64,000 bases of DNA from Synechococcus sp. CBW1108. Its GTDB lineage: Bacteria > Cyanobacteriota > Cyanobacteriia > PCC-6307 > Cyanobiaceae. How positions within the stretch are numbered: position 1 is the first letter of the stretch; every line of letters begins with the position of its first letter. The DNA lies in assembly GCF_015840335.1 (NCBI RefSeq), contig NZ_CP060395.1, forward strand, positions 3,137,277 to 3,201,276, given 5' to 3'. The notes under the pieces were generated by a model, which did not search any database, had not been told where the DNA came from, and worked only from the letters and a program-made list of their open reading frames with translations. Shown here one piece after another: positions 7,201 through 53,715 of the stretch. A program made the position numbers and the translations under genes.

Positions 7201-8525
7201 CGTGAGACAGAGAGAAAGTGCTGAGCAGCAGGCAACTCCAGCAGGGTGATGCCCGGAAGCTGTTGAGGAAGGGGGCCCTGCTGGCAGCCCGCCTCATGGA
7301 GGGTGATTGTCACCAAATTGTTGACACGCTCCTGCAGGCTTTGCCACTCGGACTGTTGCACCGGCCGCAAGCCGTGGCCCAGGAGGGATTGATTGCGCGC
7401 ATTCAGCAGCTCTCGCAGTTCATACCACTGCTTTCCAGCTGACCCCCCCAGTCCCTGATCGCCTTCCGTTTGTCTGAGCCACCAATAGAGCCCTCCCACA
7501 CCTCTACGAATCGACCAGTTACGGCAATCCCGACGAATCTGGTCATCATCCCAGAAGCTGCGGTGATCAAACTCCTTCTCCAGCTGGATATAGGTCTGAG
7601 CTAATAACTCCAGAGCTCGATAGAGGCGTGCAACGGCATCATCACACCAACCACGACTGCCGCGTCGTGCGGCGTTGAGGAGGAGATCCTGAATCAGCTC
7701 ATAGCCCGTCACTCCTTGCTGAGGTTTGCCATCCTCTAGCCATTGGCGAGCCTTCGCTACCCGCTGCCACCAGGCGATCAACTCCGGGCAGTGGCTGCTG
7801 AGCTGGCAGTGAGCAGAACGATCAAGCGCCGTTTGCCAACGGAATTGATCCCACAGCATCAACACCTCCAGGCAGGATTCCAGCTCTGTGATCGCCTCCA
7901 GATCGGTGTCATCAAAACTGTCTTGGTGGAGGACGCGCAACTCGCGCAGCACCAATCCGGCACGGTCGTAAAAGTGACCCTGAAGCAGGTGGGGCAGTTG
8001 ATCCTTCAGCAGGCGGTTGAGGCGCAGCACCCCAGCAGGCATGGTGCGGGTGCCTGCACTGCGCTCGATGCGCACCAGGTTTGAGCGCTCTCCCTGCACC
8101 AGGCTCAAGGCTGCCCCTTGATCCACAAGGGCCATCGCCAGCGCAGCACTCATCGATTTGGTACCCCCGCTGTAATCACCGATCAGCTCCAGATTGCTGA
8201 AGCGGGCCACAAGGCTGCGGCAGAAGGTCTGGAGCTGTTGATATATCGCAGTCAGGTCATCCGGGTCTGGCAGGACAACGATCTGCAGGTCGGGCCGGAA
8301 ACCCTGCAGGCCAAGCTGTACCACCAGATTGGGTCTGCTTTCCTGTAGGTCATCGACGCCTTGATGGAGGCAGGGGCTGCCTATCCCGATCACCTGCTCC
8401 AGGCCGGGCGCCTGGCAGGGTGGGCCGCTGCAGATGAAGATCAGTTCGTCCGGTTGGTGGGCGCGATAAGCCTGAAGAATCGGCTCGGGGCTGCCGCCCA
8501 CTGTGACCAGGAGCACGCGGGTCAT
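7197..8525 (-). CDS. CARF-domain protein with HEPN-like C-terminus (TIGR02710-like), pair A first gene
   Basis: The 442-residue protein starts MTRVLLVTVGGSPEPIL and carries the CARF loop DYSGGTKSM at residues 117-125. The C-terminal helical part has DDAVARLYRALELLAQ and RNQSLLGH at residues 377-384, an Arg-x6-His motif like that of HEPN RNases. It begins 7 bp after the RAMP gene and its stop overlaps the start of the next CARF gene, so it belongs to the same operon as the effector complex. It is closest to the 445-residue protein at 21004 and less similar to its own partner, so the pair was probably duplicated as a unit. Confidence 0.82.
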   Translation of the reverse strand: MTRVLLVTVGGSPEPILQAYRAHQPDELIFICSGPPCQAPGLEQVIGIGSPCLHQGVDDLQESRPNLVVQLGLQGFRPDLQIVVLPDPDDLTAIYQQLQTFCRSLVARFSNLELIGDYSGGTKSMSAALAMALVDQGAALSLVQGERSNLVRIERSAGTRTMPAGVLRLNRLLKDQLPHLLQGHFYDRAGLVLRELRVLHQDSFDDTDLEAITELESCLEVLMLWDQFRWQTALDRSAHCQLSSHCPELIAWWQRVAKARQWLEDGKPQQGVTGYELIQDLLLNAARRGSRGWCDDAVARLYRALELLAQTYIQLEKEFDHRSFWDDDQIRRDCRNWSIRRGVGGLYWWLRQTEGDQGLGGSAGKQWYELRELLNARNQSLLGHGLRPVQQSEWQSLQERVNNLVTITLHEAGCQQGPLPQQLPGITLLELPAAQHFLSVSR

Positions 8526-8532
8526 GCTTGGC

Positions 8533-10650
8533 TCAGAAGGTCACCGGCCGGAAGCCGGCTTCCGCGCCGTTGCCTTCCTCCATCTGCTTGATGAAGGCAG
8601 CTGATTCACGCTGCTCAGGGAACAGCACAAGCGATTCAAGGAAGGGCCCGGGATGTACGGCAATCGACACAGCTCCCTGCGGAACTGGCGGCAGTTGCCT
8701 GGATGCCCCTGGGCGGGCCATCGCTGTCGGCCGGGCCATTGCGGAGGGACGTGTGAATGGATTGGCCGCTGGCCTGGCCATGGGTGATGCCTGGTGAGCA
8801 TTAGCTGGTGCAGAGCCTGAGCCCTGTCCATCCAGCAGGGGCAGGAGGCGGTTCCAGAGGCGCCCAACCTGGTTCACCTTGCCACCCAGGGCAGTGCCTT
8901 TGAGATCCCTGTGAAACCAGAGAATGGCTTCAGCGTTATCTGGGTCACTGGCCCGACGGGCCCAGATCCGCATGGTCTGGGGATGAAGCACTTCCCGCCA
9001 GCGGGCCGGACCGCCAGAGCGAACACCGGTGGCCTCCAGCCATCGGCGTGACAGATCACGGGCATGCTGCAGCAGTTGCGTCAGATCAGCGGAGGACTGC
9101 ACATGAACCCAAGTGGGCAGTTGTTCAGGAGCTGACCATTGCCAGTGGCAACCGATTGGCGTTTTGCCGTATGAGCTGTAGAAGATGCTGTGATCTGGCC
9201 GCCTCCAGCCTTTCCCAAATCCACCCAGGCTCATGGTGAGGCCGTGCAGGGCTGCAAGCAGATCCGTCAGCAGCGTTTCGCTTTCGTTATTACGAAAGCG
9301 TCGCATCAGGCGCCACTGCAGGCGCCCAGTGGTGGCGTAGGTCGGCTGCTGCCAGCTCCCCCTTCCGTAGGAGCCAAGTTCAGTGTTGGCATCGGTGTAG
9401 GCGGTAGCGAGCAGGCCCACGTTCTGCCCTTCCTCCCGGCTGAGTGAGCCGAACAGGCGCCCCACCACCTGACGTGCGGTGACGTCATCGCAGAGCCCAC
9501 CAAAGAGACGCAGGGCCATGCCACGGATGGCCGCACGAAACATTGTGGGGCGAAATTCGGCGGTGCCATCGAGCAACTTGGCGGCAGGCCCCTGGCCAGC
9601 CAGCTCGCATTGAAAAAGCAGATCACCGCTGATTGTGCCGCTGCTGCCGTAGCCCACACAAGTGCGCCCGCCGATGCCCTGCTGTAGGGCTGTGCGCAGC
9701 GTGGCTACAATGTCCTGCCATTCGGCTTCTGAAATAGCGGGATCAGTGCAGCTGATTGTGCCGCTGCTGCCGTAGCCCACACAAGTGCGCCCGCCGATGC
9801 CCTGCTGTAGGGCTGTGCGCAGCGTGGCTACAATGTCCTGCCATTCGGCTTCTGAAATAGCGGGATCAGTGCAGCTGAGCGCGATCTGAAGCTTGGGTCT
9901 GTGGAGACTGACCACGCCAAAGGCTGAATGGCTTTCGTGGCCGTTGTTGAAGCCCAGCTGCCAATTCTGTTGCGGGTGAGCCACATCGAGCAGGCCACCC
10001 ATCCAGCCTGCGTCGACAGGCCAGGCGCCATGAAAGCGCAGGATTCCTGGACTCAGCTCCCCCGGGGCACATGGGCTGCCGCACCAGCGCTCAAGTTGCG
10101 CTGAAGGGCAGGCGCGGCGGAACAACCCCTTGATTCCGCTGCCAGGAATAAGAGGCCAGCCACCGGCCCCAATCACAGGGCGGATCACTCCTTCATCAAC
10201 ACCGCTGTTACTGATCAGTCTCCAGTCGATCTGGGCTTCTGTGATGTGAAGGCCTGCAGTTGTGAAGGGCGACGTTCGATCAACGCGCTCCACCCACTGA
10301 TCAATCCACTCCTGAATCGGGGCACGCCAGCCAGGTGGTGCGTCCTTGGGTTTGTTGATGTACTGCCGCTGGCAGCGCCCCGGCAACTGGGCCCGGTACT
10401 CCATCGGTACACGAGCAGCATCGCCCGCAGCCACCGGCTGAATCACTGCAACCTGATCAGCCTTGGAAATGGAATCCAGCAACGGTGTTGCCGGGCGGCC
10501 CCCCGATAGGGGGGGCGAGGTTACAGGGCCTGCAACAGCTGCTGCAGCACGAGAACTAGGGGGTGGCTGCACCTGGCTTGGCGGCTTAGGTTTTTGGTTC
10601 GGGCCACCCGCACCGCCTGGAAATCTGGGTCTCTTGCCTTTCCTGCCCAT
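8533..10650 (-). CDS. Large RAMP-superfamily CRISPR protein (TIGR03986-type), type III-B backbone
   Basis: The 705-residue product starts with a low-complexity, Pro/Gln-rich basic tail (residues 1-60) and then shows RAMP features: VIGAGGWPLIPGSGIKGLFR, a glycine-rich loop GIGGRTCVGYGSSG, and a second RAMP-like region (AEFRPTMFRAAIRGMALRLFGG). Two RAMP units suggest that it covers the roles of Cmr6 and Cmr1 in one chain, which fits the absence of separate genes. A perfect in-frame duplication of 41 residues doubles the glycine-rich loop. The start overlaps the stop of the cmr5-like gene. It should bind the 3' part of the crRNA-target duplex in the effector complex. Confidence 0.78.
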   Translation of the reverse strand: MGRKGKRPRFPGGAGGPNQKPKPPSQVQPPPSSRAAAAVAGPVTSPPLSGGRPATPLLDSISKADQVAVIQPVAAGDAARVPMEYRAQLPGRCQRQYINKPKDAPPGWRAPIQEWIDQWVERVDRTSPFTTAGLHITEAQIDWRLISNSGVDEGVIRPVIGAGGWPLIPGSGIKGLFRRACPSAQLERWCGSPCAPGELSPGILRFHGAWPVDAGWMGGLLDVAHPQQNWQLGFNNGHESHSAFGVVSLHRPKLQIALSCTDPAISEAEWQDIVATLRTALQQGIGGRTCVGYGSSGTISCTDPAISEAEWQDIVATLRTALQQGIGGRTCVGYGSSGTISGDLLFQCELAGQGPAAKLLDGTAEFRPTMFRAAIRGMALRLFGGLCDDVTARQVVGRLFGSLSREEGQNVGLLATAYTDANTELGSYGRGSWQQPTYATTGRLQWRLMRRFRNNESETLLTDLLAALHGLTMSLGGFGKGWRRPDHSIFYSSYGKTPIGCHWQWSAPEQLPTWVHVQSSADLTQLLQHARDLSRRWLEATGVRSGGPARWREVLHPQTMRIWARRASDPDNAEAILWFHRDLKGTALGGKVNQVGRLWNRLLPLLDGQGSGSAPANAHQASPMARPAANPFTRPSAMARPTAMARPGASRQLPPVPQGAVSIAVHPGPFLESLVLFPEQRESAAFIKQMEEGNGAEAGFRPVTF
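9628..9873 (-). repeat. Perfect 123-bp tandem duplication inside the RAMP gene
   Basis: Positions 9628-9750 and 9751-9873 read as identical. The unit is 41 codons, so the frame is kept, and it doubles a segment that ends in the glycine-rich loop GGRTCVGYGSSGTI. The lack of any difference between copies indicates a very recent event. Confidence 0.95.
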
Positions 10651-11066
10651 CAGTTGTCTCCGGTTACACCGGCCTTAAGCCGCTGGGTCCACCACACAAC
10701 GGCATCACACAAGGCTCTGAGTACCGCCAGAGCCACCTGCTGCTCCTGAGGTTTGAGGCTCCAGATCTGTGCAGCCACGCCCTGAATCGTCGCTTCCGCG
10801 TCTGAGCTGGACAGCAGCGTGGCCGGTAGTGTCACGCCTCCCTGCTTGAGGGTGCCCACGAGCGCCTTCCAGACATCGCCCACAAATGCAGCCTTCTCGG
10901 GTTCTTTATCTTTGAGCCGCAGATGTTCACCCCAGAAGCGCTCTAGGCCATAGGCACAACTGGCGCGCATCTTGTGCGACTGATTGAGGCTGCCGGGATC
11001 GCGATGACGCGCCTTGAGCACGATTTCCTGGGCCAGGTGATCCAGGTTGTAGGGATGCCAACCCAT
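10650..11066 (-). CDS. cmr5: Small alpha-helical subunit of type III-B complex (Cmr5-like)
   Basis: The 138-residue protein is almost entirely helical and lies between the cmr4-like and RAMP genes, with one-base or ATGA-type overlaps on both sides (starts at 11066, ends at 10650). Helices such as HLAQEIVLKARHRDPG and SSDAEATIQGVAAQIWSLKP, the size and the position fit the Cmr5/Cas11 small subunit, which lines the target RNA along the Cmr4 filament. Sequence similarity in this family is low, so the name rests on size, fold and context. Confidence 0.65.
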   Translation of the reverse strand: MGWHPYNLDHLAQEIVLKARHRDPGSLNQSHKMRASCAYGLERFWGEHLRLKDKEPEKAAFVGDVWKALVGTLKQGGVTLPATLLSSSDAEATIQGVAAQIWSLKPQEQQVALAVLRALCDAVVWWTQRLKAGVTGDN

Positions 11067-11896
11067 CAGCCCGCCTCTTGGGTAGAGGGGGAGGCGAGGG
11101 TGACGTCACAACGTCCGAAACCCACACTCTCCAGGCCGCCGAAATAGAGCTCTTGACTGTCGGTGCTGCCGAATGGCTTCCAGTCAGCAGCACCTTCAGG
11201 TTTAATCGCCAAGGGGAACACCAGCACACTGCCCTCTGGCAATGCCTCCACGTTGAAGAAGGCACCGCCATCGACCTTCTTCTCGGTGTCGGCAAGTTTC
11301 ACCCGGCTTTGCCGATACAGGGCCATGTCGTGAATCAGGCCGATGTCAGCGTCATCCACCACTACCAGCCGATCCGCTGGGATTTCGTCCTCCAAGGTGG
11401 CCGGGATCAGTTCAGCGAGCCCATCCACGGGAGTTACTTCCATGAAGCCGAGATTGAAGAACAGGGTTATCCCCTTGTCCCCCTGTCGGCCGCGAAGATT
11501 GGGGCTGCAGCTGTAAGGCGTGGGGATCCGGCGGGTGAGGGTGGCATCCACGATTGACGCGTAACGACGCAGCAAGCGGGGGCAGCTCACCCACACCACC
11601 GGCTGGCCGGGGCAGAACACCGGCAGCCACACCAGCGAGGCGTATTCGAATTTCACCCTGGCTTCGCTGATCTCGCTGCTGCCAGCGGCACTGCCATACC
11701 AGTCCTCACAGGAGCTGTTGTCCTGGCGGCGCATCTCTGCTCGAAACCGCCCACGGATCGAGCTGCCTGGGATGATCCCGGTGCGGCTGAAGGCGTCGCG
11801 GAAAATCAGGTTGAGGTTGCCTGCCTCTTCGCCAGCGGAGGCGCCGACATGCAGGGGGGCGAGGGTGCGGATCAAGCCGTATCGGCGTTTGTACAT
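11066..11896 (-). CDS. cmr4: Cmr4-like (Cas7-group) RAMP backbone protein
   Basis: The 276-residue protein has the Cas7 pattern of Cmr4: an early LAPLHVGAS strand, IIPGSSIRGRFRAEMRR around residues 42-58, and a C-terminal glycine-rich loop YFGGLESVGFGR. Cmr4/Csm3 subunits form the filament that holds the crRNA and cleave target RNA with a conserved aspartate; the catalytic residue cannot be fixed here without an alignment. Its stop overlaps the start of the cmr5-like gene. The 63-bp gap to the upstream cmr3-like gene is the largest within this operon. Confidence 0.78.
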   Translation of the reverse strand: MYKRRYGLIRTLAPLHVGASAGEEAGNLNLIFRDAFSRTGIIPGSSIRGRFRAEMRRQDNSSCEDWYGSAAGSSEISEARVKFEYASLVWLPVFCPGQPVVWVSCPRLLRRYASIVDATLTRRIPTPYSCSPNLRGRQGDKGITLFFNLGFMEVTPVDGLAELIPATLEDEIPADRLVVVDDADIGLIHDMALYRQSRVKLADTEKKVDGGAFFNVEALPEGSVLVFPLAIKPEGAADWKPFGSTDSQELYFGGLESVGFGRCDVTLASPSTQEAG

Positions 11897-11959
11897 CGTG
11901 GAAGCAGGAGCGGAAGATCGGCGGGTGGTGGCAGGCCTGGGAGAACTGCTTGGTGACGC

Positions 11960-13039
11960 TCAGCCGGGGGGTGGAGCCTTGAGCGGCAGGGCCAGGGCGG
12001 TGCCCAGCTGGCGGAAGCTGAAGCCCTCCCTCGGGAACCAGCTTTCGGGCCAGACCGCCCATGGCGGCAGCGGCTCTCCGGTTACCAAGTAGCAGGTGCC
12101 AGCGGGCACGGCCCAGCGGCCACGCGAGAGGCGCCGGCGGCCCGGCTGCGTGCCATCAGCCCGGGTCGTGCCAGCACCGAGGCGATGGCGCCAGGGCCTT
12201 GGCTTGTCGGTGAGAATCCCCGGGGGCTGGCCGTTCCGGTGCCAGGGATGCACGCCCTGCCTTGAGGTGGTGTCGAGCGGTTCGCGCAGCGACAGCTTCG
12301 GCCCGCCCCACAGGCCAGGGGTGATCAGCGCGAAGGGAGGCGTGAGCGGCAGTTGCAGCAAGCGAAGTAGCTCCGACGGCAGGGGGCTGCTTCGCAGCTC
12401 CACGAGGTGGCCTTCTCCTCCGAAGCGGTAGAGGCCATCGGGCACCTGGTGGCTGCTCAGGTAAGCGAGGCAGGCCCCAGCCTTCAGGGCGATCCCGTAT
12501 TCCAGAAACAGGGCCCCATCGCCGTCGCTGACGCGTTCGTCGTCGCGTAGACGCGGATGCAGGTGCGGTAGCGCTTGCCAGGGGTTCTCGTGGATCGGCA
12601 CCGCCACGTCTTCTATCAACCGGGGCCAGTGAGCCAGGGCAACCCAGCCACCGGTGGGGGCCTTGCGCGGAGGATCCTCACCATCACGGGGGGACCAGCC
12701 CGCCGGGCTCAACGCACCATCACCCTCCCGCCAGGCCAGGCGCCGGCGGCTCTGGCGCTTCTGCTCGGCATCCCGCTCCTGCAAAAGGGTTAACGGCGCA
12801 GGCAACATCAGCTGATCGCTTGTAGAATCGAACCAGAACGGCCCAGCGGTGAAAAGTTCGCGCAGACTGCCGGACTCCAGCTGGCCGGCGAGCAGGCCAG
12901 CGAGCGCCGGTGAATCGGGTGGGAAGTGTTCGGCGGCACGGCCGGTGAGGGCCTGGGGCGAAAGCATCCGGCCGCTTGAGCCGTAGAGCAGGCCGAGGGG
13001 CTCCAGCAAGATCAGATGCTGGAAGGGAATGGCTGTCAT
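11960..13039 (-). CDS. cmr3: Cmr3-like (Cas5-group) RAMP protein
   Basis: The 359-residue product, counted from the ATG at 13039, begins MTAIPFQHLILLEPLGLLYG and contains FPPDSPALAGLLAG and SELLRLLQLPLTPPFALITPGLWGG, features of Cmr3, which caps the 5' tag of the crRNA next to Cas10. The start was moved downstream from an earlier in-frame ATG because this one overlaps the cas10 stop as ATGA. A proline-rich C-terminus (PLKAPPPG) ends the protein. Position right after cas10 supports the assignment. Confidence 0.75.
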   Translation of the reverse strand: MTAIPFQHLILLEPLGLLYGSSGRMLSPQALTGRAAEHFPPDSPALAGLLAGQLESGSLRELFTAGPFWFDSTSDQLMLPAPLTLLQERDAEQKRQSRRRLAWREGDGALSPAGWSPRDGEDPPRKAPTGGWVALAHWPRLIEDVAVPIHENPWQALPHLHPRLRDDERVSDGDGALFLEYGIALKAGACLAYLSSHQVPDGLYRFGGEGHLVELRSSPLPSELLRLLQLPLTPPFALITPGLWGGPKLSLREPLDTTSRQGVHPWHRNGQPPGILTDKPRPWRHRLGAGTTRADGTQPGRRRLSRGRWAVPAGTCYLVTGEPLPPWAVWPESWFPREGFSFRQLGTALALPLKAPPPG

Positions 13040-14628
13040 GCGCTGACCTCCTGAAGCTTGCCGCCCTTGCTTTTCTCCAGGCCGGCCATCACCCGGCCAA
13101 GATCCAGGAGCCATTGGTCGAGGGAGCGCTCGGGCTCAGGAGGCGCCGGCAGCTTCCAATCGGGGAAGTAGGCAAGCAGCAGCGTCTCAGCGATGGCAGT
13201 GGCTCCGGTGCTGCCGTCACCGATTGCGCGACGACCGCGCAGCCAGGCCAAATCGTCGGCCAGATGGCGCCAGCTTGGTGGCTTGCCATCTCGAGAGGTC
13301 TGCAACGTGCGGCCCTCCCGATCGCGGTAGTGTTCAAGGATCGGAGTGAGCCACTCCCACGGGCAGGTCCACTCCAGGTGGTTGCCACTGGCATAGAGAA
13401 GGCGCAGCGCAAAGCGGTTCTTGCCGCGGAACTTGGCGCTGGCTTCCGCATCGCGGGCATGTTGCAGTGCCTCCCGCTGGGGTACGGAGGAATCCGCCCA
13501 CACCAGCCCCATCGACACCGTGAGAGCAGGCTGGCCGCAGCCTTGCCAGAGCTCCGGAAATATCCTCAGCCATTGCCACAGATCCGCTCGCACCAGATCT
13601 CCCATACCGGGACTGCTTTCGTGCAGGGCGCCGAACACATCGTCCCCACCTGCATAGACCACCATCGCCTTGTTATTCAGGAGTCGTGGCACCTTCTGGT
13701 AAAGACCGGCGGCCCATTGGCGCATCTGCCGGCTGAACGACTGCAGGGCCTGCTCTTCTCCCAGCCGTGTTCCGAGGCTCTGGAGATGGTCGCCGATGCC
13801 ATCTCCGTCGGCCATGAACCAGATGATTGATTCAGGCTTGTCTTCCTCTGACCCGCGGGTACTGAGGAGAGCGAAACGCTCCGGGATCAGTTCGGTGACG
13901 TTCGGGGTGGGGTCGGCAGCGGTGGCGAAAGCACGAGTGGCCACATCGGCATAGGTGACCAACCGCTTCACCAGCTCGCTGAGCGACAGCTCCTCGTTCT
14001 CGCCAGCGAAGGCCTCGCCGAGCTTGTCTCGCAGAACCACGAGAAAGGCGCGGGTCTCTTCGCGGGCTGCGCCTGGATCGAGCTCGCGGGGGTCGAGCAC
14101 CAGGCCCATTCCCGGGCGCACCACCGCTTCTGCCGAGGAGAGGGTGGAGCTCTCTCCGGTCCAGTTGGGAGCGCTCCAGTCGCGCTGCAGCTTGTTCACC
14201 GCCAGAGCGCGGCGGGCGTCCTGGATCGTGGCGCCCTCCCCATGGAACACCTCCCAACTGTGCTGACCGCAGGCCTTCCAGCTCGTTCCCCAGCTGCGTT
14301 CCCAATCGAGCGGCTCCAGGGCGGTACCCGCCAGGTTGCACTCCAGCCAGCTGCGGCATTCCTGGAGCAGCTGCTTCCAGGTGGCCAGCAAAGTGTCACG
14401 AGCATGGCCCTTGCGGTAGTCGCCCTTGATCACCAGCACGTTGGGCACGCCGCGGGAACTGCTCACCTCGGCTGGACTGATCACAGTGAGGCCGCGGCCC
14501 TGGGCGTCGTCCGCCAGGGCACGGGCGAGGTGAGAGAGGAGCAGGGAGCTGCCGTAGAGATCCCGCAATTTCCGCGACGCCTGGATGAACGATTGCACCG
14601 GCGCGAAGGTGACGGCTGTGTAGGTCAT
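13036..14628 (-). CDS. cas10: Compact Cas10 (Cmr2-type) without HD domain
   Basis: The 530-residue protein starts directly with the cyclase-type N-terminal segment FAPVQSFIQASRKLRDLYG. There is no HD nuclease domain in front, where Cmr2/Csm1 proteins often have one, and the protein is shorter than the usual 700-1000 residues. Two palm motifs are visible: FMADGDGIGDHL (residues 271-282) and YAGGDDVFG with GGDD at residues 327-330, the catalytic signature for making cyclic oligoadenylates from ATP. It should therefore signal to the CARF proteins but not cleave DNA itself. It is first in the minus-strand operon and its stop overlaps the cmr3-like start. Confidence 0.9.
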   Translation of the reverse strand: MTYTAVTFAPVQSFIQASRKLRDLYGSSLLLSHLARALADDAQGRGLTVISPAEVSSSRGVPNVLVIKGDYRKGHARDTLLATWKQLLQECRSWLECNLAGTALEPLDWERSWGTSWKACGQHSWEVFHGEGATIQDARRALAVNKLQRDWSAPNWTGESSTLSSAEAVVRPGMGLVLDPRELDPGAAREETRAFLVVLRDKLGEAFAGENEELSLSELVKRLVTYADVATRAFATAADPTPNVTELIPERFALLSTRGSEEDKPESIIWFMADGDGIGDHLQSLGTRLGEEQALQSFSRQMRQWAAGLYQKVPRLLNNKAMVVYAGGDDVFGALHESSPGMGDLVRADLWQWLRIFPELWQGCGQPALTVSMGLVWADSSVPQREALQHARDAEASAKFRGKNRFALRLLYASGNHLEWTCPWEWLTPILEHYRDREGRTLQTSRDGKPPSWRHLADDLAWLRGRRAIGDGSTGATAIAETLLLAYFPDWKLPAPPEPERSLDQWLLDLGRVMAGLEKSKGGKLQEVSA

Positions 14629-15101: not shown

Positions 15102-16094
15102 ATGAGAAGTTTGTACCTGCTGCGCAGCCATGGCCAGGTGGGCCTTGAGGGCGAACAGGTTGTGGTTCGCGAAGGCGAAGAAGAGCTGGAGAGGGTTCCG
15201 TTACCTCAGCTCGATCAGATTCTGGTGCATGGCAACCTGCAGCTCACCACCCCCTTGATCCGCGCTTGCCTTGAGCGGCAGGTGAGCATTGCCTATTTCA
15301 GTTCGTCTGGCTGGTGCCAGGGGCGTCTTCTGCCGATCGACAAGGGCTATCGCCATCGGATGCGCCATCAGCAGATGCTCAGCACGCAGGAGCGTCAGAC
15401 GGCGGCGGTGAGCCTGATCCGCGGCAAGATTGCCAATGGGCGGGTGCTTTTGCTGCGGCTAACTCGCCGCCAGCGCCGCCAGGAAATCAATGCCTCGCTG
15501 GAGAGGCTCAGTTGGCTGTTGAACAAGCTGAGCAACAGTGACCCGCCCGAGCGGATCCAGGGGCTGGAGGGCAATGCGGCGCTGGAATAACAGCAGGCCC
15601 TGGGCCTGCTGTTAGCAGAAAGCGGGTTTCCAGTGATGGGGCGACAATTCCGGCCGCCAACGAGTCCGTTCGATGCGCTCAGCAGTTATGGCTATGGCGT
15701 GCTGGCGAGCTCGATGCAAACGCGGCTGGAGCTGCATGGCCTCGACCCCTACGAGGGTGTGCTGCATGTGGGATCCGCACGCCACCCCGCACTGGTTTCA
15801 GACCTGATTGAGCCTTTCCGAACGCTGCTGGTGGACCCGTTCAATGTGTGGATGATCCGCACCGGCCGCATCAACGCGGAGGCGGGATTTGAACGGCGCA
15901 AAGGAGGTGTCTTTCTCAACGCGGTCACGCGCCGCCAATGGATGGGGGCATGGGCGGTGCATATGGCGGAGGAGGTGCAACTGGCGAACGATCGCTGCGG
16001 ACCACGCTGGGAATTGCTCGATGCGCTGGTGCGCTCCTATGTGCGCTTTGTGTACGACCCCGCCAGCGGTCTCACGGTGCCACAGCGACGCTGA
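15102..16094 (+). pseudogene. cas1: Second, divergent cas1 interrupted by one in-frame TAA
   Basis: Two segments in the same frame (15102-15590 and from 15591) make up a whole Cas1, the integrase that inserts spacers. The N-terminal part matches the intact Cas1 in this window (MRSLYLLRSHGQVGLEGEQV, LDQILVHGNLQLTTPLIRAC) and the C-terminal part carries LDPYEGVLHVGSARHPALVSDLIEPFR and the Cas1 metal-site region. They are separated only by a TAA at 15588-15590; the surrounding sequence (GLEGNAALE, stop, QQALGLLLAE) is well conserved, so one point mutation, probably in a tyrosine codon, silenced it. The protein is a clear paralogue of the intact Cas1 genes, not a recent copy. Confidence 0.88.
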
Positions 16095-16107
16095 GGAGGG
16101 TGGAGTG

Positions 16108-16239
16108 ATGCGGTGGGTGGTGGCTTACGACACCCCTTGCAGTAAGCGACCCCGAAAGCTGGCGGTGCTTCTCAAGAACCTGACATTCAACTTCCTGCGA
16201 TATCTTCTAAGAGCGGATCGTGGGCTTGCACTCGCATGA
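16108..16239 (+). pseudogene. cas2: cas2 5' fragment
   Basis: The first 27 residues, MRWVVAYDTPCSKRPRKLAV, match the Cas2 N-terminus (compare WVIAYDSPSNKRRRKLAKLL in the intact copies). After LLKN the sequence changes to unrelated residues and stops at 16239. The gene follows the broken cas1 by 13 bp, as in a normal cas1-cas2 operon. Together with the cas1 nonsense codon it shows that this adaptation module is dead. Confidence 0.8.
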
Positions 16240-16401: not shown

Positions 16402-16658
16402 GTTTCCAATCAATAGGTGTCACCAACGAGTGGTGACCGGGGGCCCATGGTGGCTACGGTTTCGAAGGAGGCTAGTTTCCAATCAATAGGTGTCACCAAC
16501 GAGTGGTGACCGGAAGATGAAAAATAGTCTTCTCCTCATGATGGGGGCGTTTCCAATCAATAGGTGTCACCAACGAGTGGTGACCGGAAGATGAAAAATA
16601 GTCTTCTCCTCATGATGGCGGCGTTTCCAATCAATAGGTGTCACCAACGAGTGGTGAC
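16402..16658 (-). CRISPR. CRISPR array 1: four 36-bp repeats, three spacers
   Basis: Repeats lie at 16402-16437, 16475-16510, 16549-16584 and 16623-16658. On the plus strand each starts GTTTCCAATC and ends GGTGAC, and holds a 7-bp palindrome (GTCACCA/TGGTGAC). The four are identical. Spacers are 37, 38 and 38 bp. Spacers 2 and 3 are almost the same, differing at one base near their right end. The leader lies on the right next to cas2, so transcription should run leftward and the right end should be youngest. The array reads toward the dead cas1/cas2 genes. Confidence 0.97.
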
Positions 16659-16940
16659 AGCGGCCCCCGAGAGGGCCTGCGCGGCAGGCGATCCGGAGAC
16701 CGTTTGCGCACCTCCCTACTTTGGCCGCGGCTGGCCGTGGCGTCAAGCCTGTGGAAAACGCTGAGATCCCCTGCGCCGCAGGGCAGCGCGCAGGAGGACA
16801 CAAACACTGGGGTTTCGGCCGATCGCCGGGGGGTGCGCGGCGGATCGAAAGGGACCAAGCCTCTGAAGCCAGTCGTTCTGCACTGAAGGTCCTACGCGCA
16901 CCCCCAGAGCGACACCGCGAGACAACGCTCGGGAACCTGG
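16659..16940 (-). promoter_or_regulatory. CRISPR leader, array 1
   Basis: This 282-bp non-coding segment lies between the cas2 stop and the nearest repeat and is duplicated exactly next to array 2, where it also abuts the first repeat. Position and conservation identify it as the leader, holding the array promoter and the Cas1-Cas2 integration signals. Confidence 0.75.
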
Positions 16941-17222
16941 TCAGATCACCTTGTCCTGCCAGACCGTCACCTCCACATCCCGGCCCATCTGCTCAGCTGC
17001 CACAGCCCGCTGCGGCAGCGACCAGAGCCTGATGCTGTCGGCCGGCTCGGCGATGCGCTCCAGGCCATGCCTGAGGCGCTGCATCTGGTGGGGCCGCAGC
17101 CGGCACTCGAACACGCTCCACTGCATGCGCACCCCATAGCCCTCCAGCAACTTGGCCAGCTTGCGGCGTCGCTTGTTGCTGGGGCTGTCGTAGGCGATCA
17201 CCCAGAGTTGCTCCTGGTTCAT
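16941..17222 (-). CDS. cas2: Cas2, copy 1
   Basis: The 93-residue protein starts MNQEQLWVIAYDSPSNKRRR, with the ferredoxin-like Cas2 core and the conserved aspartate in AYDSP, and continues LEGYGVRMQWSVFECRL. Cas2 dimerises and bridges two Cas1 dimers during spacer integration. The start at 17222 overlaps the cas1 stop as ATGA; a longer in-frame start would lie deep inside cas1. The gene lies directly upstream of the leader, and an identical copy is at 52278-52559. Confidence 0.92.
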   Translation of the reverse strand: MNQEQLWVIAYDSPSNKRRRKLAKLLEGYGVRMQWSVFECRLRPHQMQRLRHGLERIAEPADSIRLWSLPQRAVAAEQMGRDVEVTVWQDKVI

Positions 17223-18211
17223 CGCCTCAGGGGCACCAGCAGGGGTTGCTCGGGATCGTCCACGAAACGGGCGAAGCTCTGTACCAGCTGATCGAGCACT
17301 TCCCAACGCGGCCCGGTGTTGCCATCACAGAGGATGATCGGCTCGGCCATGAAGGCCGACCAGGCCTGCAGCCACAGGCGCCGGCCGGTCTCGGAGAGGT
17401 ACACACCGCCAGCGTTGGGCTCGAAGTGCTCCTCGGCCCGCAACTGACCGCTGCGAATCAGTTGTCCGTGGAAGGGATCAACCAGGTAGGTCCGCAGCGG
17501 TTCGATCAAATCCGACACCAACGCTGCATGGCGAGCCGAGCCCACATGCAGCACACCGACATAAGGATCAAGCCCACGCAGCTCCACTCGCAGCAGCAGC
17601 GCATTCCACAGCACCCCATAGCCGAAACCGCAGAGGGCATCGAATGGGGTGCCTGGCGGCCGCCGGCTGCGTACCGCGAAGCCGAAACCATCTCCTTCCA
17701 GCAGGTTGCCGAAGCTGCGGAAGTAGAGAGCTGCTGCAGCTCCCTCCAGCCCCCGCAGATGGTTGGAGCAGGGTGCCTTCGCCGTGAGCGCCTGCAGCTG
17801 AGCCAGCCGCCGCAACGCGGATTCCACAGCAGGCCGGCCGCCTCGGCGCGTGAACCGCTGCAGCACCACCCGGCTATTGGCGATCTTGCCAGCCACCAAC
17901 CTGCGGGCCACCGCCAGCCTCTGGGCCGCGGACAGCTCCGCCTGACGGCGGGACCGGTGCCGGTAGCCGCTCTCCAAGGGCTGCAGGCGTCCCAGGCACT
18001 GGCCACCGCTGGTTAGGTAGGCGATCGGAATGCCGCGCCGCAGGCAGGCGCGGATCAGTTGGGTGGTGAGCTGTAAGTGGCCCAGCACCAGGATCTGGTC
18101 GAGCAGGGGCAGGGACATGCGGTCGAGCTCCTGCTCGCCGCTGCTCACCACCAGCTGCTCGCCCTCGATGCCGGCGGTGCCGTGGGGGCGCAGGAGATAA
18201 AGGGAGCGCAT
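17219..18211 (-). CDS. cas1: Cas1, copy 1
   Basis: The 330-residue protein has the Cas1 layout: an N-terminal beta domain (MRSLYLLRPHGTAGIEGEQL, LDQILVLGHLQLTTQLIRAC) and a helical catalytic domain with GLEGAAAALYFRSFG (metal-site Glu), LDPYVGVLHVGSARHAALVSDLIEPLR (His and Glu/Asp ligands) and the terminal VQSFARFVDDPEQPLLVPLRR. It is full length for the family. It integrates new spacers at the leader end of the array. The kinase-like gene is divergent from a shared 282-bp upstream region. The protein is identical to the copy at 51289-52281. Confidence 0.95.
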   Translation of the reverse strand: MRSLYLLRPHGTAGIEGEQLVVSSGEQELDRMSLPLLDQILVLGHLQLTTQLIRACLRRGIPIAYLTSGGQCLGRLQPLESGYRHRSRRQAELSAAQRLAVARRLVAGKIANSRVVLQRFTRRGGRPAVESALRRLAQLQALTAKAPCSNHLRGLEGAAAALYFRSFGNLLEGDGFGFAVRSRRPPGTPFDALCGFGYGVLWNALLLRVELRGLDPYVGVLHVGSARHAALVSDLIEPLRTYLVDPFHGQLIRSGQLRAEEHFEPNAGGVYLSETGRRLWLQAWSAFMAEPIILCDGNTGPRWEVLDQLVQSFARFVDDPEQPLLVPLRR

Positions 18212-18493
18212 GGGGCATTGGTGAGGTCGACATCAGGATTGCCACGTTCATGGCCATGGCCAACGCCCTACGGGCAGCCAGCCCTGATGTGTTGCTCAAT
18301 CCCACGAGAAACCAGTGCGTGTTGCAGGAAATCAATACGCTGAATCCAGTTCAGATTTGGAGAATTAAAAAATGGGCTGCTAATCAACGATCAGATCTCC
18401 AGCCCAAGCGCTGCTTGACTCTGGGTGGACGCGCTTAAACGTTGGATTGATTGATCCTAACGTTACAATGCCTACATCACTCCCCTGAGTTCA
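18212..18493. promoter_or_regulatory. Divergent promoter region between cas1 and the kinase-like gene, copy 1
   Basis: This 282-bp non-coding segment separates two divergent genes and is identical in both copies of the module. An AT-rich part (18350-18370) and the repeat-like text GTTGGATTGATTGATCCTAA near 18441 could form promoter or operator elements. Sharing it implies co-regulation of spacer acquisition and the kinase-like protein. Confidence 0.45.
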
Positions 18494-19195
18494 TTGCCCG
18501 TCACGCTGGAGATCTATCAACAAGTAAGCCAGGCTGGTAGCTTTGCCAGCCGAGCCGGCCGGGGCACCATGGCGGTGGTGCGGGAGCTTGACGACGGCGT
18601 GGTGGAGAAATCCGACCGCCGCGACGAGCTACCGCTGGTGGCCAGGGAGTTCATCATCACCGAACATCTGCGCAGCACCGGTATGGTGCCGCTGATCAAC
18701 GTGGATGAGGGGCTCTACGGCTACCCCTTGAGCTTCCAGATGGAGAAAATCAACAACGGCGGCACCCTACAGGATTGGCTTGAGTTTCACAGCCGCACCC
18801 CAATCTCCAGGGATGTGTGGGCAGAGATCTTCCAAGGCGTCAGCAAAGGCATACGGGCCGTGTGGGCGGCTGGAGTGTTGCAGGGAGACCTGCACGTCCG
18901 CAATGTGGTGGTCGGCACTGATTCGAGTGGCTGCCAACTCAAGCCCCACATCATCGACTTCGGTGTGGCCGTCATGGACGAGGAACCGTTCGAGGCCTTG
19001 GCCCATGGCCTCGGGCTACCCGATGTTGTGGCCGAATCACAGCAGTGGTTTGAGCGCCAGATCCAGCCCCGCTACGACGACCCGACGGATGAAAAGGCCT
19101 TCCTGATCAGCGATATCCAGGAGTGGATCAACACCCTCAATATCCAGGATCTCGATGGCCTGCTGGATGATTTTCGTCGCGGGCTGCGCACATGA
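18494..19195 (+). CDS. Small protein-kinase-fold protein beside cas1, copy 1
   Basis: The 233-residue product has a compact kinase-like fold. A possible ATP-binding lysine sits in DDGVVEKSDR (residue 39) and a conserved Glu may lie in REFIITEHL. The catalytic loop is QGDLHVRNVV (residues 130-139, an HGDLHxxN-type loop with the His replaced by Gln) and the metal-binding motif is IIDFGVA (153-159). Such loops occur in RIO, aminoglycoside-phosphotransferase-like and ABC1 kinases. The start is a TTG at 18494; an ATG at 18569 is an alternative but would remove part of the N-lobe. It is divergent from cas1 in both copies of the module. A role in CRISPR adaptation is inference from context only. Confidence 0.65.
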   Translation: MPVTLEIYQQVSQAGSFASRAGRGTMAVVRELDDGVVEKSDRRDELPLVAREFIITEHLRSTGMVPLINVDEGLYGYPLSFQMEKINNGGTLQDWLEFHSRTPISRDVWAEIFQGVSKGIRAVWAAGVLQGDLHVRNVVVGTDSSGCQLKPHIIDFGVAVMDEEPFEALAHGLGLPDVVAESQQWFERQIQPRYDDPTDEKAFLISDIQEWINTLNIQDLDGLLDDFRRGLRT

Positions 19196-21003: not shown

Positions 21004-22341
21004 ATGAGCAAGATGCTGCTGGTAACTGTGGGAGGGAGTCCTGAACCGGTTCTTCACACGGTTCGCAATCACAACCCCGACGAGGTAATCTTCATCCCCA
21101 GCGTGAAGCCCACCCTGAGGCCGAGCCTGGATCAGGTGATAGGAGAAGGCATACCCTGCAGGCATGAACTCCCCAATGGTGTGGTGGAGATCCGGAAGAA
21201 TCTGGTTGTGCAGCTGGGTTTGCAGGAGCGTTTTGATCCGGACCGACATCTGATCGGTATCCCTGATCCGGACAACCTGGGTGATTGCTATAGGCGAATC
21301 CGCAGCGCCTGCCGGAACCTTCAGGAATCTGGCGGCCGGCATCACCTGATAGGCGACTACACCGGAGGCACCAAAACAATGAGCACGGCACTGGTGATGG
21401 CCTGCGTGGAGCTTGATGCGGAGCTAAGCCTAGTGACGGGACCACGGGACAATCTTTCCAAGGTCACCAATCAAAGTGAAGGCACGCGAGCGATCGACAT
21501 CGGCCCCCTTCGCGCAGTCCGAGTGCTTCAGGAGCGATTGCCTGAACTGCTGGCCGTCCATGCCTACGATCAGGCAGCACTCTCGATAGGTATTCTGCGC
21601 ACGAGTCTCGGTGAATCCTTGCCTCCATGGGCGGCGGATGCTGCAGATCAGTTGCTGGAGAGCCTGAACATCATGGATACCTGGGAGCGATTTCGTTGGA
21701 ACGATGCTCTTGTGCGTGCCAAGCGAACCACACTGGCCACCTGCTTTCCTGAGCTGATCGAGTGGTGGGAGCGGGTGTGGGTATCCCGCTCGTGGCTCAA
21801 GACATCATCCATTGATATTGGGGTCGCAACGGGCTATGAGCTGGTACAGGATCTTCTTCTCAATGCAGACAGAAAAGGAAGCCGAGGTTTGTATGACGAT
21901 GCAGTGGCCAGAATCTATCGAGCTCTTGAGCTTCTTGGGCAAAGTTACGTGCAATTTGAATTGGGAATAACGGAAAATAGTACCTGGAATCGAGGACAAT
22001 GTTTCCTAAAGACGGGTGAGCAGGTGCCAACTGGGAGCCTGAAGGAGCTGTACGACTGGTTAGAGCGGAACGACACCAAAAATATACTTGCTCCGCAGTA
22101 TCTGCGCCAGCGAGATCGGCTCTCCCAGCTGCGGCACGCGCGCAATCAGTCCTTGATGGCACATGGCCTCATTCCTGTGAGGAGGGCTCAATGGCTCTCG
22201 TTTCAAGATGGGGTGGAACAACTGGTTGATGCAGTGCTCCACTCACCTGGCTTCTCCCAGGGACCACCTCCCCAGCAGCTTCCCGGCACCGCCCTCCTGC
22301 AGCTCCCTGAGTCCCAAGTGCTGCTGGGCATGGCGGGATGA
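21004..22341 (+). CDS. CARF-domain protein with HEPN-like C-terminus (TIGR02710-like), pair B first gene
   Basis: The 445-residue protein is a clear paralogue of the 442-residue CARF protein at 7197-8525. It starts MSKMLLVTVGGSPEPVLHTV, has the CARF loop DYTGGTKTM at 118-126, DDAVARIYRALELLGQ in the helical half and RNQSLMAH at 380-387 (Arg-x6-His, HEPN-like). All expected motifs are present, so it should be an active cyclic-oligoadenylate sensor. Its stop overlaps the start of the next CARF gene as ATGA. This pair is far from cas10 but leads a plus-strand series of ancillary genes that includes a ring nuclease. Confidence 0.82.
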   Translation: MSKMLLVTVGGSPEPVLHTVRNHNPDEVIFIPSVKPTLRPSLDQVIGEGIPCRHELPNGVVEIRKNLVVQLGLQERFDPDRHLIGIPDPDNLGDCYRRIRSACRNLQESGGRHHLIGDYTGGTKTMSTALVMACVELDAELSLVTGPRDNLSKVTNQSEGTRAIDIGPLRAVRVLQERLPELLAVHAYDQAALSIGILRTSLGESLPPWAADAADQLLESLNIMDTWERFRWNDALVRAKRTTLATCFPELIEWWERVWVSRSWLKTSSIDIGVATGYELVQDLLLNADRKGSRGLYDDAVARIYRALELLGQSYVQFELGITENSTWNRGQCFLKTGEQVPTGSLKELYDWLERNDTKNILAPQYLRQRDRLSQLRHARNQSLMAHGLIPVRRAQWLSFQDGVEQLVDAVLHSPGFSQGPPPQQLPGTALLQLPESQVLLGMAG

Positions 22342-23540
22342 TTCACATTCTTGTGCTGTCTATCGGCAAGCAACCAGACGGCCCGATCCAGACCATCCGT
22401 GGCGTGCGGCCCGACCGGGTGGTGTTTATCTGCAGCCAGGAAAGCCAAGACCTGATCCGGTCCATTCAGGCCCGGGTGCCCGTGCCCGATTTCGATGCGG
22501 ACCGTGATGTCATGGTGTTGCAGCACCGACGCCCTGGCAGTAGCCCTGAGGCATCCAATGAGCTCGATCGTCTCGATTCTGTCTATGTTCAGGCCAGTGC
22601 GTTGTTGGAACGCTTAGGCCAGGAACACCCTGGCTGCAGGCTCACCGTGGACTACACCGGTGGCACCAAATCCATGGGTGCGGGCCTGGCGATGGCGGCC
22701 ATCGATGATCCGGTGGCGAACCTGCAGCTCACCACCCTTGAGCAGCGTGTGCCTGGATCGACCGTGATCACAGGCCACAGCTTCCCGGTCCCCGTGCCTA
22801 CAGAGGCGATCCATGCCCACCGGCTGTTGTCGTTGGAGCTCCCCACCCTGTTGCAACGCTTTGACTACGCGGCTGCTGAAGGCGCCATTGGCCGTGTGCG
22901 GCGTGGTCTGCAGCCCGAAAGCGAGGCGTTCCGAACGCTTACGCGGCTTGAAACGCTGATGGTGGCCCTCGACGCCTGGGATCGTTTTGACCACAGGACA
23001 GCTGTGCAGCTCCTCAATGGAAGGGGGCGTGAACCGGCGATTCTGGCCCTTCTGCTACCGCTCAAGCGGGTGGTGTCCTCCCGCAAATTGGTGGATGCCA
23101 GGGCCCGTGGGGAGGATTGGCCCTCGATGCCCGGCCATGGGCTGGAGCTGGCGGAAGATCTCCTGCGCAACGCCGAACGCCGTGCTGCTCAGCATCGCTA
23201 TGACGATGCGGTGGGGCGTCTCTACCGAGCGGTGGAGCTCACGGCACAGCTGTTGTTGCGTACGGGAGTTGCGGGTTATGTAGGCGAGGAAGGAATTGAT
23301 ACAAGCGATGTGGCCACTGAGCGGCTGCCCGAGATCCTGCAACCTACCTACCGATCCCTTCATGAGCGCAAGGGAGTTGATCAACCATTGAAACTTGGCT
23401 TGGTGGAGAGTTACGAACTGCTCGCTGCACTTCTCCATCCTGTTGGCCTGCGTTGGAAGCAACGGGATGAAAATCTGAGACGGGCCCTCAAGCTCCGCAA
23501 TGCCAGCCAGTTTGCCCATGGCTTTGAGGCGATCGGCTAA
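22338..23540 (+). CDS. CARF-domain protein with HEPN-like motif, pair B second gene, truncated by a nonsense codon
   Basis: The 400-residue product matches the 436-residue protein at 5890-7200 (MIHILVLSIGKQPDGPI; CARF loop DYTGGTKSM at 105-113). It keeps the Arg-x6-His motif RNASQFAH at 387-394 but stops seven residues later at a TAA (23538-23540). The same frame then continues IGWQTLWSTCGLFVQEAIAE and LPKLPSSLAA, clearly the homologous C-terminus, to a TGA at 23682-23684. One mutation, probably in a tyrosine codon, removed the last 47 or so residues. Whether the short form still works is unknown. It is coupled to the upstream gene by an ATGA overlap. Confidence 0.82.
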   Translation: MIHILVLSIGKQPDGPIQTIRGVRPDRVVFICSQESQDLIRSIQARVPVPDFDADRDVMVLQHRRPGSSPEASNELDRLDSVYVQASALLERLGQEHPGCRLTVDYTGGTKSMGAGLAMAAIDDPVANLQLTTLEQRVPGSTVITGHSFPVPVPTEAIHAHRLLSLELPTLLQRFDYAAAEGAIGRVRRGLQPESEAFRTLTRLETLMVALDAWDRFDHRTAVQLLNGRGREPAILALLLPLKRVVSSRKLVDARARGEDWPSMPGHGLELAEDLLRNAERRAAQHRYDDAVGRLYRAVELTAQLLLRTGVAGYVGEEGIDTSDVATERLPEILQPTYRSLHERKGVDQPLKLGLVESYELLAALLHPVGLRWKQRDENLRRALKLRNASQFAHGFEAIG

Positions 23541-23701: not shown

Positions 23702-23836
23702 GGTTGAACGCATGAAATCGAGGATCGGTGCTTCGCATGAAATACCCGCACATCAATGCTCCCCTTGTTGACACTGGCTTGGTCACTCAACCAGGTCCAC
23801 CCCATGACTGCTTCCAACAACATCAACCTCGGCAAC
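23702..23836 (+). promoter_or_regulatory. Conserved 5' region of membrane protein 1 (shared with membrane protein 2)
   Basis: From GGTTGAACGCATGAAATC at 23702 through the first codons of the membrane-protein gene, the sequence is almost the same as 29911-30045. A TTGACA box lies at 23768-23773. The non-coding part is conserved as strongly as the coding part, so it was duplicated with the gene and probably contains the promoter or an operator. Confidence 0.6.
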
Positions 23837-25573
23837 CTCAACGGGCGCTCGCAGCAAGCCAGCCGTCAGGCAGAAAGCCTGTTAAAGAGTCTGGATGGTC
23901 AGAAGGCCGGCTCGGGTTTGGGCAAGGCCCCAACCACCACCAGGCAGACACCTTCAGGATTGGGAGGTGGTGTCAACGGCAATGGCCAGCCCCCGCAGGC
24001 GGCGAGCCCCGGTCCTGGGGATCGGAAAGAAGACAACCTCGCATCAGAGAACGCTCTGGCATTGGTGCAGTTCCTGGAATCCCATGGCCCCAGCGAGGAT
24101 CTGGTAATGCAGGCCAGTCAGCACTACTTCCGCCAGCCCACCACGGTGCAGAAGCAGGAAAAGCCGTGGAAAAAGGTGTACGGCCTGGTCGGCGTACTGC
24201 CGGAGGATGTGCGTGGTAAGCATGCGGTCAGTGAGTCCCTGCGGGGTAGCTCCAGGATTACGGCTGTCCTGCTGACCCTGAGCTCCTGGATCGATCTGAC
24301 CTCGTCGGTCGGGTTGTTTTCCTTCGTGTTCCGACTGGCCCCAGGTGGTGCCTTGCTGTGGGGTCCGTTCACTGCCGGCATCTTGCTGCTCATGAGCAAC
24401 AAGTCCGGCCGGGCCATGGTCGATCGCCACAACAACAAGAAGATGGCCAATGTCGCGACGGTGGTATTTGCGTCGGTGGCGGCGTTCCAGACGGGCCTGT
24501 CCGGGGTGGGGGTGTTCCTATTCAGTGGCCAAGACCAGGTGGTGAACCACAAGGCGGAGCAGGTGATCAATGGCGATCTGGACCGGCGGCGGCGTCTGAT
24601 CGAAGGACTGCAGAATCCGACGAATCCGGCTTTCCATGCCGATGCCAAGGCCTGTGAAGCCAACACGGCTCGTCTTTCGGCTATGGGGTCGCGCAACCCT
24701 GCCTACCAGCAACTGTCGGTGGAGACGTTCGGCCGCTGGGACGATCGCCGGGTGGCGCCCACCAACAAGCCGCGTTGGGTGCTGCAGCAGACGCCCCTGG
24801 ATCGCTGGCCGATCTGTTCCCGTGCCGCCGCCAAGGAGGGTGCCATTCAGGCCCAGCTGAGCACCGAGGTGAGAGAGCTGGCGAGCCTCGAGAAGAAGCT
24901 GCAAAACACCCCCAACAAGGTGGCGTTCCTGCGCCAGGAGCAGCCCAAGGTGTTCGAACAGCACTTCGTGATGGAACCCAATGGCTCTGTGGCCATGAGA
25001 AGCGCGACCGAGGCCTTCGGGGCAGCGGTGGTCTATTTCATCTGGCCGCCGGAGGGAGCACGCAACAACCTGCTGCTCAGCTACGTGATCATGGGCCTGT
25101 CCATCCTCACCAGCAGCGCCGCCTTTTTCTCTCTGCTGACCCAGGCGCGGTCGGATAAGACCAAGATGTCCTTTGAGGCAGCCTGTGGGCAACAACGCAG
25201 TCTCCTGCTGTCCAGGATCCGCGAACGCTTGCCGGAGGACGCCGATGTCTGGTTCCAGCGCCAGCGTTCTGTTCAGCGCCGGCGTGGTGCCGCTCAGAAG
25301 GAGGGCTATACCGCTGCACAGGTCAGCAACCTCAACCCGGAGTTTCAGACGCTGGCCAGTCTCCTCAAAACCGGGAATGAGGAGGTGAGGTGCGAAGCGC
25401 AGGAGCAGTACTGGGAGCATCTGATTGACTTGTACATCATGCGCAGCAGCGAAACTGGCGACATCGACTACGGCTACCTCTCCAACCGTTTGGAGCGTTT
25501 CTGGCACGACTTCAAGGCGACCAAGAACAGCCGGGTGGCCTCGAGTGGCTGGATGGGTCCAGAGGCCTCGTGA
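23804..25573 (+). CDS. Polytopic membrane protein 1 of the ancillary cluster
   Basis: The 589-residue protein starts MTASNNINLGNLNGRSQQAS with a hydrophilic Gly/Pro/Gln-rich N-terminal part of about 120 residues, followed by at least four hydrophobic spans (ITAVLLTLSSWIDL; GGALLWGPFTAGILLLM; NVATVVFASVAAFQTGLSG; NNLLLSYVIMGLSILTSSAA). A soluble domain of about 170 residues with many Arg, Gln and Glu (RRRRLIEGLQNPTNP, ELASLEKKLQ) separates spans 3 and 4. An in-frame ATG at 23756 is an alternative start. A near-copy lies at 30013-31698. It sits directly after a CARF pair and before a ring nuclease; a membrane effector of type III signalling is a hypothesis. The family is not recognised. Confidence 0.8.
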   Translation: MTASNNINLGNLNGRSQQASRQAESLLKSLDGQKAGSGLGKAPTTTRQTPSGLGGGVNGNGQPPQAASPGPGDRKEDNLASENALALVQFLESHGPSEDLVMQASQHYFRQPTTVQKQEKPWKKVYGLVGVLPEDVRGKHAVSESLRGSSRITAVLLTLSSWIDLTSSVGLFSFVFRLAPGGALLWGPFTAGILLLMSNKSGRAMVDRHNNKKMANVATVVFASVAAFQTGLSGVGVFLFSGQDQVVNHKAEQVINGDLDRRRRLIEGLQNPTNPAFHADAKACEANTARLSAMGSRNPAYQQLSVETFGRWDDRRVAPTNKPRWVLQQTPLDRWPICSRAAAKEGAIQAQLSTEVRELASLEKKLQNTPNKVAFLRQEQPKVFEQHFVMEPNGSVAMRSATEAFGAAVVYFIWPPEGARNNLLLSYVIMGLSILTSSAAFFSLLTQARSDKTKMSFEAACGQQRSLLLSRIRERLPEDADVWFQRQRSVQRRRGAAQKEGYTAAQVSNLNPEFQTLASLLKTGNEEVRCEAQEQYWEHLIDLYIMRSSETGDIDYGYLSNRLERFWHDFKATKNSRVASSGWMGPEAS

Positions 25574-28798: not shown

Positions 28799-29125
28799 AT
28801 GACGCTCTACATCATGTCTACCACCATCATCCCCAGCGGCAGTTGGGGAACCTGGTCCATGGCTCCCGCCACCATCGAAGAAGTGGCGACTGCCATCGCC
28901 GACGGTGCCATCTCGGCAGTGGGCCATAGTGATACTGCAAAGATAATCAACACTCTCACCAACCAATCCATCACCGCGAATCGCATCACGGTCAGGCCCA
29001 AGGTGGGTGATACTTTCTTTTGCTTCTCCTTGAAACAGCGGCCTCCAGAAGGAGCCATTCTTTCCTGTGCGCAGTTGGAGGCGATCGGCTACCAGTGGGC
29101 TCGCATGGATTTCAGAGGGCCGTAG
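28799..29125 (+). CDS. crn2: DUF1874 / Crn2-type ring nuclease (AcrIII-1 homologue)
   Basis: The 108-residue protein matches DUF1874. It starts MTLYIMSTTIIPSGSW and has AISAVGHSDTAKIINTL with the conserved His at residue 43, which corresponds to the catalytic histidine in the IGH motif of SIRV1 gp29. This is followed by KQRPPEGAIL (79-88), the conserved R..EG region, and EAIGYQWARMDF near the end. In the family the dimer degrades cyclic tetra-adenylate quickly; viral forms are anti-CRISPRs, cellular forms (Crn2) sit in type III loci. Here it is in a host-type CRISPR cluster after a CARF pair and a membrane protein, which points to Crn2. A ribosome binding site (AGAGGA) precedes the ATG. Family membership is from motif comparison by eye. 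Confidence 0.85.
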   Translation: MTLYIMSTTIIPSGSWGTWSMAPATIEEVATAIADGAISAVGHSDTAKIINTLTNQSITANRITVRPKVGDTFFCFSLKQRPPEGAILSCAQLEAIGYQWARMDFRGP

Positions 29126-53710: not shown

Positions 53711-53715
53711 CCCTT

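Follow-up and report, generated by a model that had tools for sequence, protein, structure and literature searches.

The window analysed here is a stretch of 64,000 nucleotides from Synechococcus sp. CBW1108, corresponding to positions 3,137,277-3,201,276 of a single contig (3,226,220 bases; genome 98.5% complete), and the positions given below are window positions. It contains a type III-B defence island with two arrays, A and B, of clustered regularly interspaced short palindromic repeats (CRISPR), and our subject is the adaptation module, with its cas1, cas2, leader and kinase-like gene, that stands at both of them. In a base-by-base comparison of the assembled sequence, 16623-19167 (copy A, minus strand) is the reverse complement of 50333-52877 (copy B, plus strand), 2,545 bp with 0 mismatches. 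The first-pass annotation had described an apparently exact inverted duplication of a cas1-cas2-leader-kinase module, and this holds to the base: the maximal exact match covers precisely these two intervals and cannot be extended by a single base on either side. Read from the array inward, the block opens with the leader-adjacent repeat and the leader, continues with cas2 and cas1, and after 282 bp to which no gene is assigned takes in almost the whole kinase-like gene, by codon phase as far as the ninth codon before its stop. Chance cannot account for 2.5 kb of identity. A search of the single-contig genome with the block returned two full-length places and 17 other matches, namely one kinase-tail remnant, two weak matches to a broken second cas1 (cas1x, described below) and 14 array repeats.

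In copy A the genes are cas2 (16941-17222, minus strand; a PADLOC Cas2, scanned as the longer frame 16941-17306), cas1 (17219-18211, minus strand; 330 aa, PF01867 with E 2.9e-73) and the kinase-like gene (18494-19195, plus strand; 233 aa, start codon uncertain). Their counterparts in copy B are the kinase-like gene at 50305-51006 (minus strand), and cas1 (51289-52281, PF01867 found in the search of the own genome) and cas2 (52278-52559), both on the plus strand and identical to those of copy A. Apart from these two identical copies, no intact cas1 was found in the one-contig genome. With cas1, cas2, leader and repeats lying together and cmr genes present in the island, the block is a type III-B adaptation module. 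The kinase-like gene matches Pkinase weakly, under the curated cut-off, and has ULK1 as its best match among solved structures (E 0.003); visible in its translation are GDLHVRN, which resembles a catalytic loop, and a DFG.

Leader A (16659-16940, minus strand, between repeat and cas2) is identical to leader B (52560-52841, plus strand, between cas2 and repeat). Array A (16402-16658, minus strand) has four repeats, all perfect, and three spacers, two of which are adjacent (16475-16622) and differ by one base. Array B (52842-53951, plus strand) has 12 repeats, the first four perfect and the other eight with 1-5 changes, together with 10 spacers of normal length and a 304-bp non-spacer stretch (53464-53767) with a small open frame. 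No spacer is common to the two arrays, and their longest common word is 12 bases; spacers A1 and B1 have the 12-mer CCGCCATCATGA in common and may have related targets. A search for phage targets, made for A1 and B1 only, gave chance-level matches (best E 1-2). When as many as 5 substitutions are allowed, no spacer of A (3) or B (10) has a match elsewhere in the window. The presence of different spacers at two identical leaders suggests past acquisition activity.

The two borders of the block differ in what they can tell. The first-pass annotation had placed one border at a CRISPR repeat and the other within the last kinase codons, with the loci homologous yet different beyond it, and both placements proved accurate. 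The left border is the first base of the leader-adjacent repeat (16623-16658; partner 52842-52877). The right border is the second base of a kinase codon, and beyond it come the third base of that codon, eight sense codons and the stop. Over these 28 bases (19168-19195) the kinase genes remain homologous up to the stop but differ at five positions (19168, 19171, 19177, 19183 and 19192), which are the only differences in 702 bases, the preceding 674 being identical. All five would fall within the last 28 bases with P 7e-8 under random placement. All five are also at third codon positions (P 0.004, post hoc) and one of them alters the protein (D to E). After the stop there are two more common bases, and then the flanks of A and B are unrelated. 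The third-position pattern is, to judge from the sequence, that of two genes that evolved as coding sequence, and mutation after a simple duplication would not yield a diverged end confined to the last 28 bases. We conclude that site A already had a kinase end with a history of its own and that the rest was overwritten, by homologous copying rather than by fresh insertion. As in gene conversion, a block of high identity stands next to homologous but diverged sequence (0 of 674 versus 5 of 28 differences), and each of the two loci retains its own outer and inner neighbours.

The comparison with relatives suggests which of the two sites is older. Beside array A lie the Csx1 pair A and cmr6-5-4-3-cas10 of type III-B (5890-14628, minus strand; domain and PADLOC annotation) and, between these and the array, the remains of another cas1-cas2 pair. 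The second cas1, cas1x (15102-16094, plus strand), has one in-frame TAA and is the sister of cas1 of the relative G114 (81% identical; support 100/100 in the tree). The cas2x remnant (16107-16239, plus strand, ends approximate) has a match of about 50 bp to cas2 of the window and relatives and was aligned with G114 cas2. The intact window cas1 groups instead with the island cas1 genes of G244 (two), G221 and G091 and with that of G267, again at 100/100. In G114 the order is Csx1 pair, cmr6 to cas10, cas1, cas2 and an array oriented like array A, and site A stands beside the same Csx1/cmr-cas10 set. The G114 repeat has 33 of 36 bases in common with the window repeat and differs at three, and its leader is poorly similar. 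At site B the neighbourhood is that of other relatives. The order in G221 is CARF-RelE, kinase, AAA_33, cas1, cas2, array and a homologue of o54109, and G091 again has kinase, AAA_33, cas1, cas2 and array, with fragments of CARF-RelE (its kinase and cas1 are broken). As the window has a CARF-RelE gene (48854-50266, plus strand) adjoining the kinase on one side of copy B and o54109 beyond its array, B is the syntenic site, which suggests that copy B is in the ancestral neighbourhood.

A further point connects the two copies to each other. AAA_33 lies between kinase and cas1 in all three relatives that have more than a kinase tail (G244, G221 and G091) and is missing at both A and B. This indicates that A and B descend from one derived module. 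The gap between kinase and cas1 in the window has no match in the islands of these three genomes, and a search of the rest of the own genome yielded long AAA_33 proteins only (30-33% identity), not a short AAA_33 gene. Long AAA_33 proteins with a WYL-like C-terminal part are encoded at 33731-35998 and 41825-44062, and related short AAA_33 genes adjoin the kinase in relatives.

Modules of this kind are scattered. The cas1 gene was found at E <=1e-60 in 9 of 300 family genomes, including the own genome, and the kinase in 5 of the 300, also including the own; the same five were recovered among 399 genomes of the order, and one of them, G002, has no more than the kinase tail. The other 15 genomes of the genus all lack the module; G002, which is among these, shows a match to the kinase tail and a weak one of 51 bp. 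Its tail remnant (G002:C42:16261-16387, L010) and the one in the own genome (G000:C1:1185607-1185756, L003, with a 127-bp match at 1,185,630) sit between the same two neighbouring genes, presumably, by inspection, the end of an alanyl-tRNA-synthetase-like gene and an ATPase-like gene. In a search of the phylum, Cas1 was found at E <=1e-20 in 130 of 386 genomes. Among the matches listed, none of the 40 genomes with at least two rows (102 rows) has a Cas1 pair of equal bit score, in a tally compiled by hand, which could miss a genome, and from genomes among which drafts can hide identical copies by collapse.

A second tract in the island indicates that conversion-like exchange has been more than a single event there. 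The C3a124 paralogues (a PADLOC name) at 23756-25573 and 29965-31698 have a mean identity of 88% over 1,519 ungapped bases, and this identity is a mosaic, with successive segments of 119, 117, 49, 705 and 529 bp that are 79.0%, 100%, 73.5%, 98.7% and 74.3% identical, respectively. None of 2,000 shuffles of the mismatches matched the strength of the observed segment. The candidate conversion tract is 24161-25031 in the first paralogue and 30307-31177 in the second, both on the plus strand, with flanks at 79.0% and 74.3%. The 134 bp upstream of the paralogues are 97% identical, and the paralogues are in direct, not inverted, orientation. The first-pass annotation had also proposed that gene conversion affected one of two older copies of the adaptation module. 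Conversion is well supported, by the kinase border and by this second tract, but two older full copies are not required: site A needs merely a diverged kinase end and a CRISPR array, and the cas1-cas2 remains beside it belong to another Cas1 lineage.

Taken together, our results suggest that in the recent past one copy replaced a different predecessor at its site, so that array A was taken over by a B-type module through homologous recombination within the type III-B island; we put the probability of this at roughly 70%. Before the takeover, site A would have had its own leader and a repeat type as in G114. The donor module (kinase, cas1, cas2, leader and first repeat), most likely from site B, would have been copied over site A, with the kinase homology as one recombination arm and CRISPR repeats perhaps as the other. 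The first repeat of A would in this way have become B-type, and array A would have been rebuilt with B-type repeats because each new CRISPR repeat is copied from the first; the repeats of A, all of them perfect, are in keeping with this. The cas1x-cas2x pair may then have decayed, as the imported leader and repeat would no longer match it, and arrays A and B would have been refilled separately, each with its own spacers, by one identical Cas1-Cas2. Our guess is that the kinase was carried along and not selected for.

Several observations weigh against this takeover or against parts of it. The direction of conversion, which we infer to be from B to A, rests on synteny. The kinase tail appears too short to decide it: among the tails of A, B, G091, G244 and the G002 remnant (G221 and L003 yielded no tail and were dropped), there are five differences between A and B and five between B and G091, seven each for A-G091, A-G244 and B-G244, and eight and six, respectively, from A and B to the G002 remnant. 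No kinase match is present in the 38 kb around the G114 array, so that the G114 state does not account for the arrival of a kinase end at site A, and the cmr-side array of G221 is oriented the other way, so that the G114 layout is not universal. The left border carries no information on a breakpoint, whatever the length of the tract, because new spacers are inserted directly behind the leader-adjacent repeat and thus enter exactly there; between any two active arrays identity has to end at this point. Homogenisation is also not general among relatives. In G244 one island cas1 gene has 91% identity to the window cas1 and the other 81%, and when the two are compared in blocks of 60 bases they agree at 39-57; the leaders G244_3, G221_3 and G091_1/2 (a pair with 81.6% identity) are unlike those of their genome-mates. 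Other leaders do resemble each other within genomes, at 92-94% for three of the four leaders of G244, two of the three of G221 and both of those in L029; between genomes, these leaders and that of the window are 75-84% identical. This high within-genome identity fits homogenisation and recent duplication equally. One observation on relatives does favour the takeover: in array 3 of G244, the three oldest of nine repeats have three linked changes that are missing from the newer repeats, a switch of repeat type such as would follow from a replaced first repeat.

An unlikely alternative is that the assembly has collapsed two slightly different copies, one consensus having been put in both places. 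A collapsed repeat would show just such perfect identity, broken off at the point from which the copies differ again. Against this, the genome is a single contig in which each place has flanks of its own; with a divergence like that of the kinase ends (5 of 28), copies are not expected to merge, and an assembler would not create a diverged homologous end. Collapse would moreover need copies that were already nearly identical, in which case a recent homogenisation still stands. About as improbable is that the incoming DNA at one of the sites came from another cell and not from the copy within the genome. The patchy distribution of related modules in the family, with 9 of 300 genomes, would be consistent with such a source, as would the kinase ends, since A and B (five differences) are about as distant from each other as either is from other genera (5-7). 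Such DNA would, however, need to have the same AAA_33 loss and 2,545 bp of identity with the resident copy.

A fresh segmental duplication, or an insertion in the manner of a mobile element, at a site A with no older homologue is less likely again. It would agree with the exactness of the copies and with the absence of the module from the 15 other genomes of the genus, but the kinase end past the border at A is homologous and diverged, at third positions only. A casposon or other mobile element was considered and rejected: no inverted repeat of at least 14 bp links the module ends, and no common flanking word of 4-11 bases is found at either copy. The module has no match in the plasmid collection and the kinase none in IMG/VR, and among phages there were two weak and partial hits (30% and 37% identity).

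Recombination between exact inverted repeats 31 kb apart is possible and would invert the region between them, in which, as previously annotated, CARF pair B (21004-23540) and crn2 (28799-29125; PF08960, which we take to be the Crn2 family) are located. No evidence of such an inversion was found. A flip would exchange the ends of the two kinase genes and reverse everything between the copies, with no switch function apparent. Relative to the kinase, the orientation of both o31571 and the AAA_33-WYL gene in G221 is the reverse of that in the window; the inner region has thus been rearranged, and neither orientation of the 31 kb explains the G221 order fully. Long inverted repeats do recombine: in a Salmonella study with inverted cassettes 5 of 59 recombinants had the inversion, and for tuf the share was as high as a quarter (PMC8262849). 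That the copies are kept as an inversion switch for the CARF and other defence genes is nevertheless the least probable reading, very unlikely in our view, as the inner borders, by position, cut through nothing but the final codons of the kinase genes and a flip changes little, the CARF-RelE/kinase neighbourhood of B matches relatives unflipped, and the transposase genes of the inner region are not at the borders.

The takeover of array A resembles the tuf case, in which inverted paralogues on one chromosome are homogenised by recombination with occasional inversion (PMC8262849). It differs in that the tract here is a whole adaptation module with its leader, which apparently replaced a locus of another lineage, and in that one border is the site where the module itself inserts new DNA. 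A published parallel to the switch of repeat type exists in Pyrobaculum, where arrays mix repeat types and homologous recombination or a leader-proximal repeat copied from another array is suggested (PMC3396285). In the portion of that paper available the evidence comes from repeats, whereas here the whole leader-cas2-cas1 unit is duplicated. In the Sulfolobales, adaptation modules are exchanged between partners, Cas1 evolves together with repeats and leaders, and recombination takes place between the spacer-repeat regions of different loci in a cell; the accessible sections of that work describe no exact inverted copy of cas1-cas2 and leader such as the one found here (PMC4390879). Nor did searches of the open-licence literature on CRISPR recombination and duplicated or exchanged modules list a described case of such a duplication.

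If the takeover is real, a single conversion of leader and first repeat would be enough to recruit a foreign array to another Cas1-Cas2, its own cas1-cas2 being left to decay, and distinct CRISPR arrays could in this way come to be served by the same machinery. In a recent survey, 25.0% of arrays have a companion in their genome with an identical consensus repeat, and some overlap in spacers is seen for 11.9% of those (PMC12814883). Arrays A and B, with their common repeat, are such companions. The survey text available names duplication, transfer and splitting as origins, and leader takeover by conversion is not among them (PMC12814883). Duplication followed by the loss of old spacers can also explain arrays with the same repeat and no spacer overlap. 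The locus described here is a concrete alternative to that route, with an apparent state before the event visible in G114. We speculate, tentatively and with rather less than even odds, that gene conversion, with the kinase and the leader-proximal repeat as its anchors, spreads adaptation modules within genomes, and that this is a general origin of same-repeat arrays without common spacers. The island could in any case be used for mapping and measuring recombination between defence paralogues.

Three minor features of the window may be added. The cmr6 gene contains a perfect 128-bp direct repeat with a period of 123 (41 codons) at 9628-9878, which is either an in-frame duplication or a feature of the assembly. 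Near the window edge, 911-1702 matches the adenylation domain of NAD-dependent DNA ligase, and 58070-58768 has a RelA/SpoT-like partial match, far under the curated cut-off.

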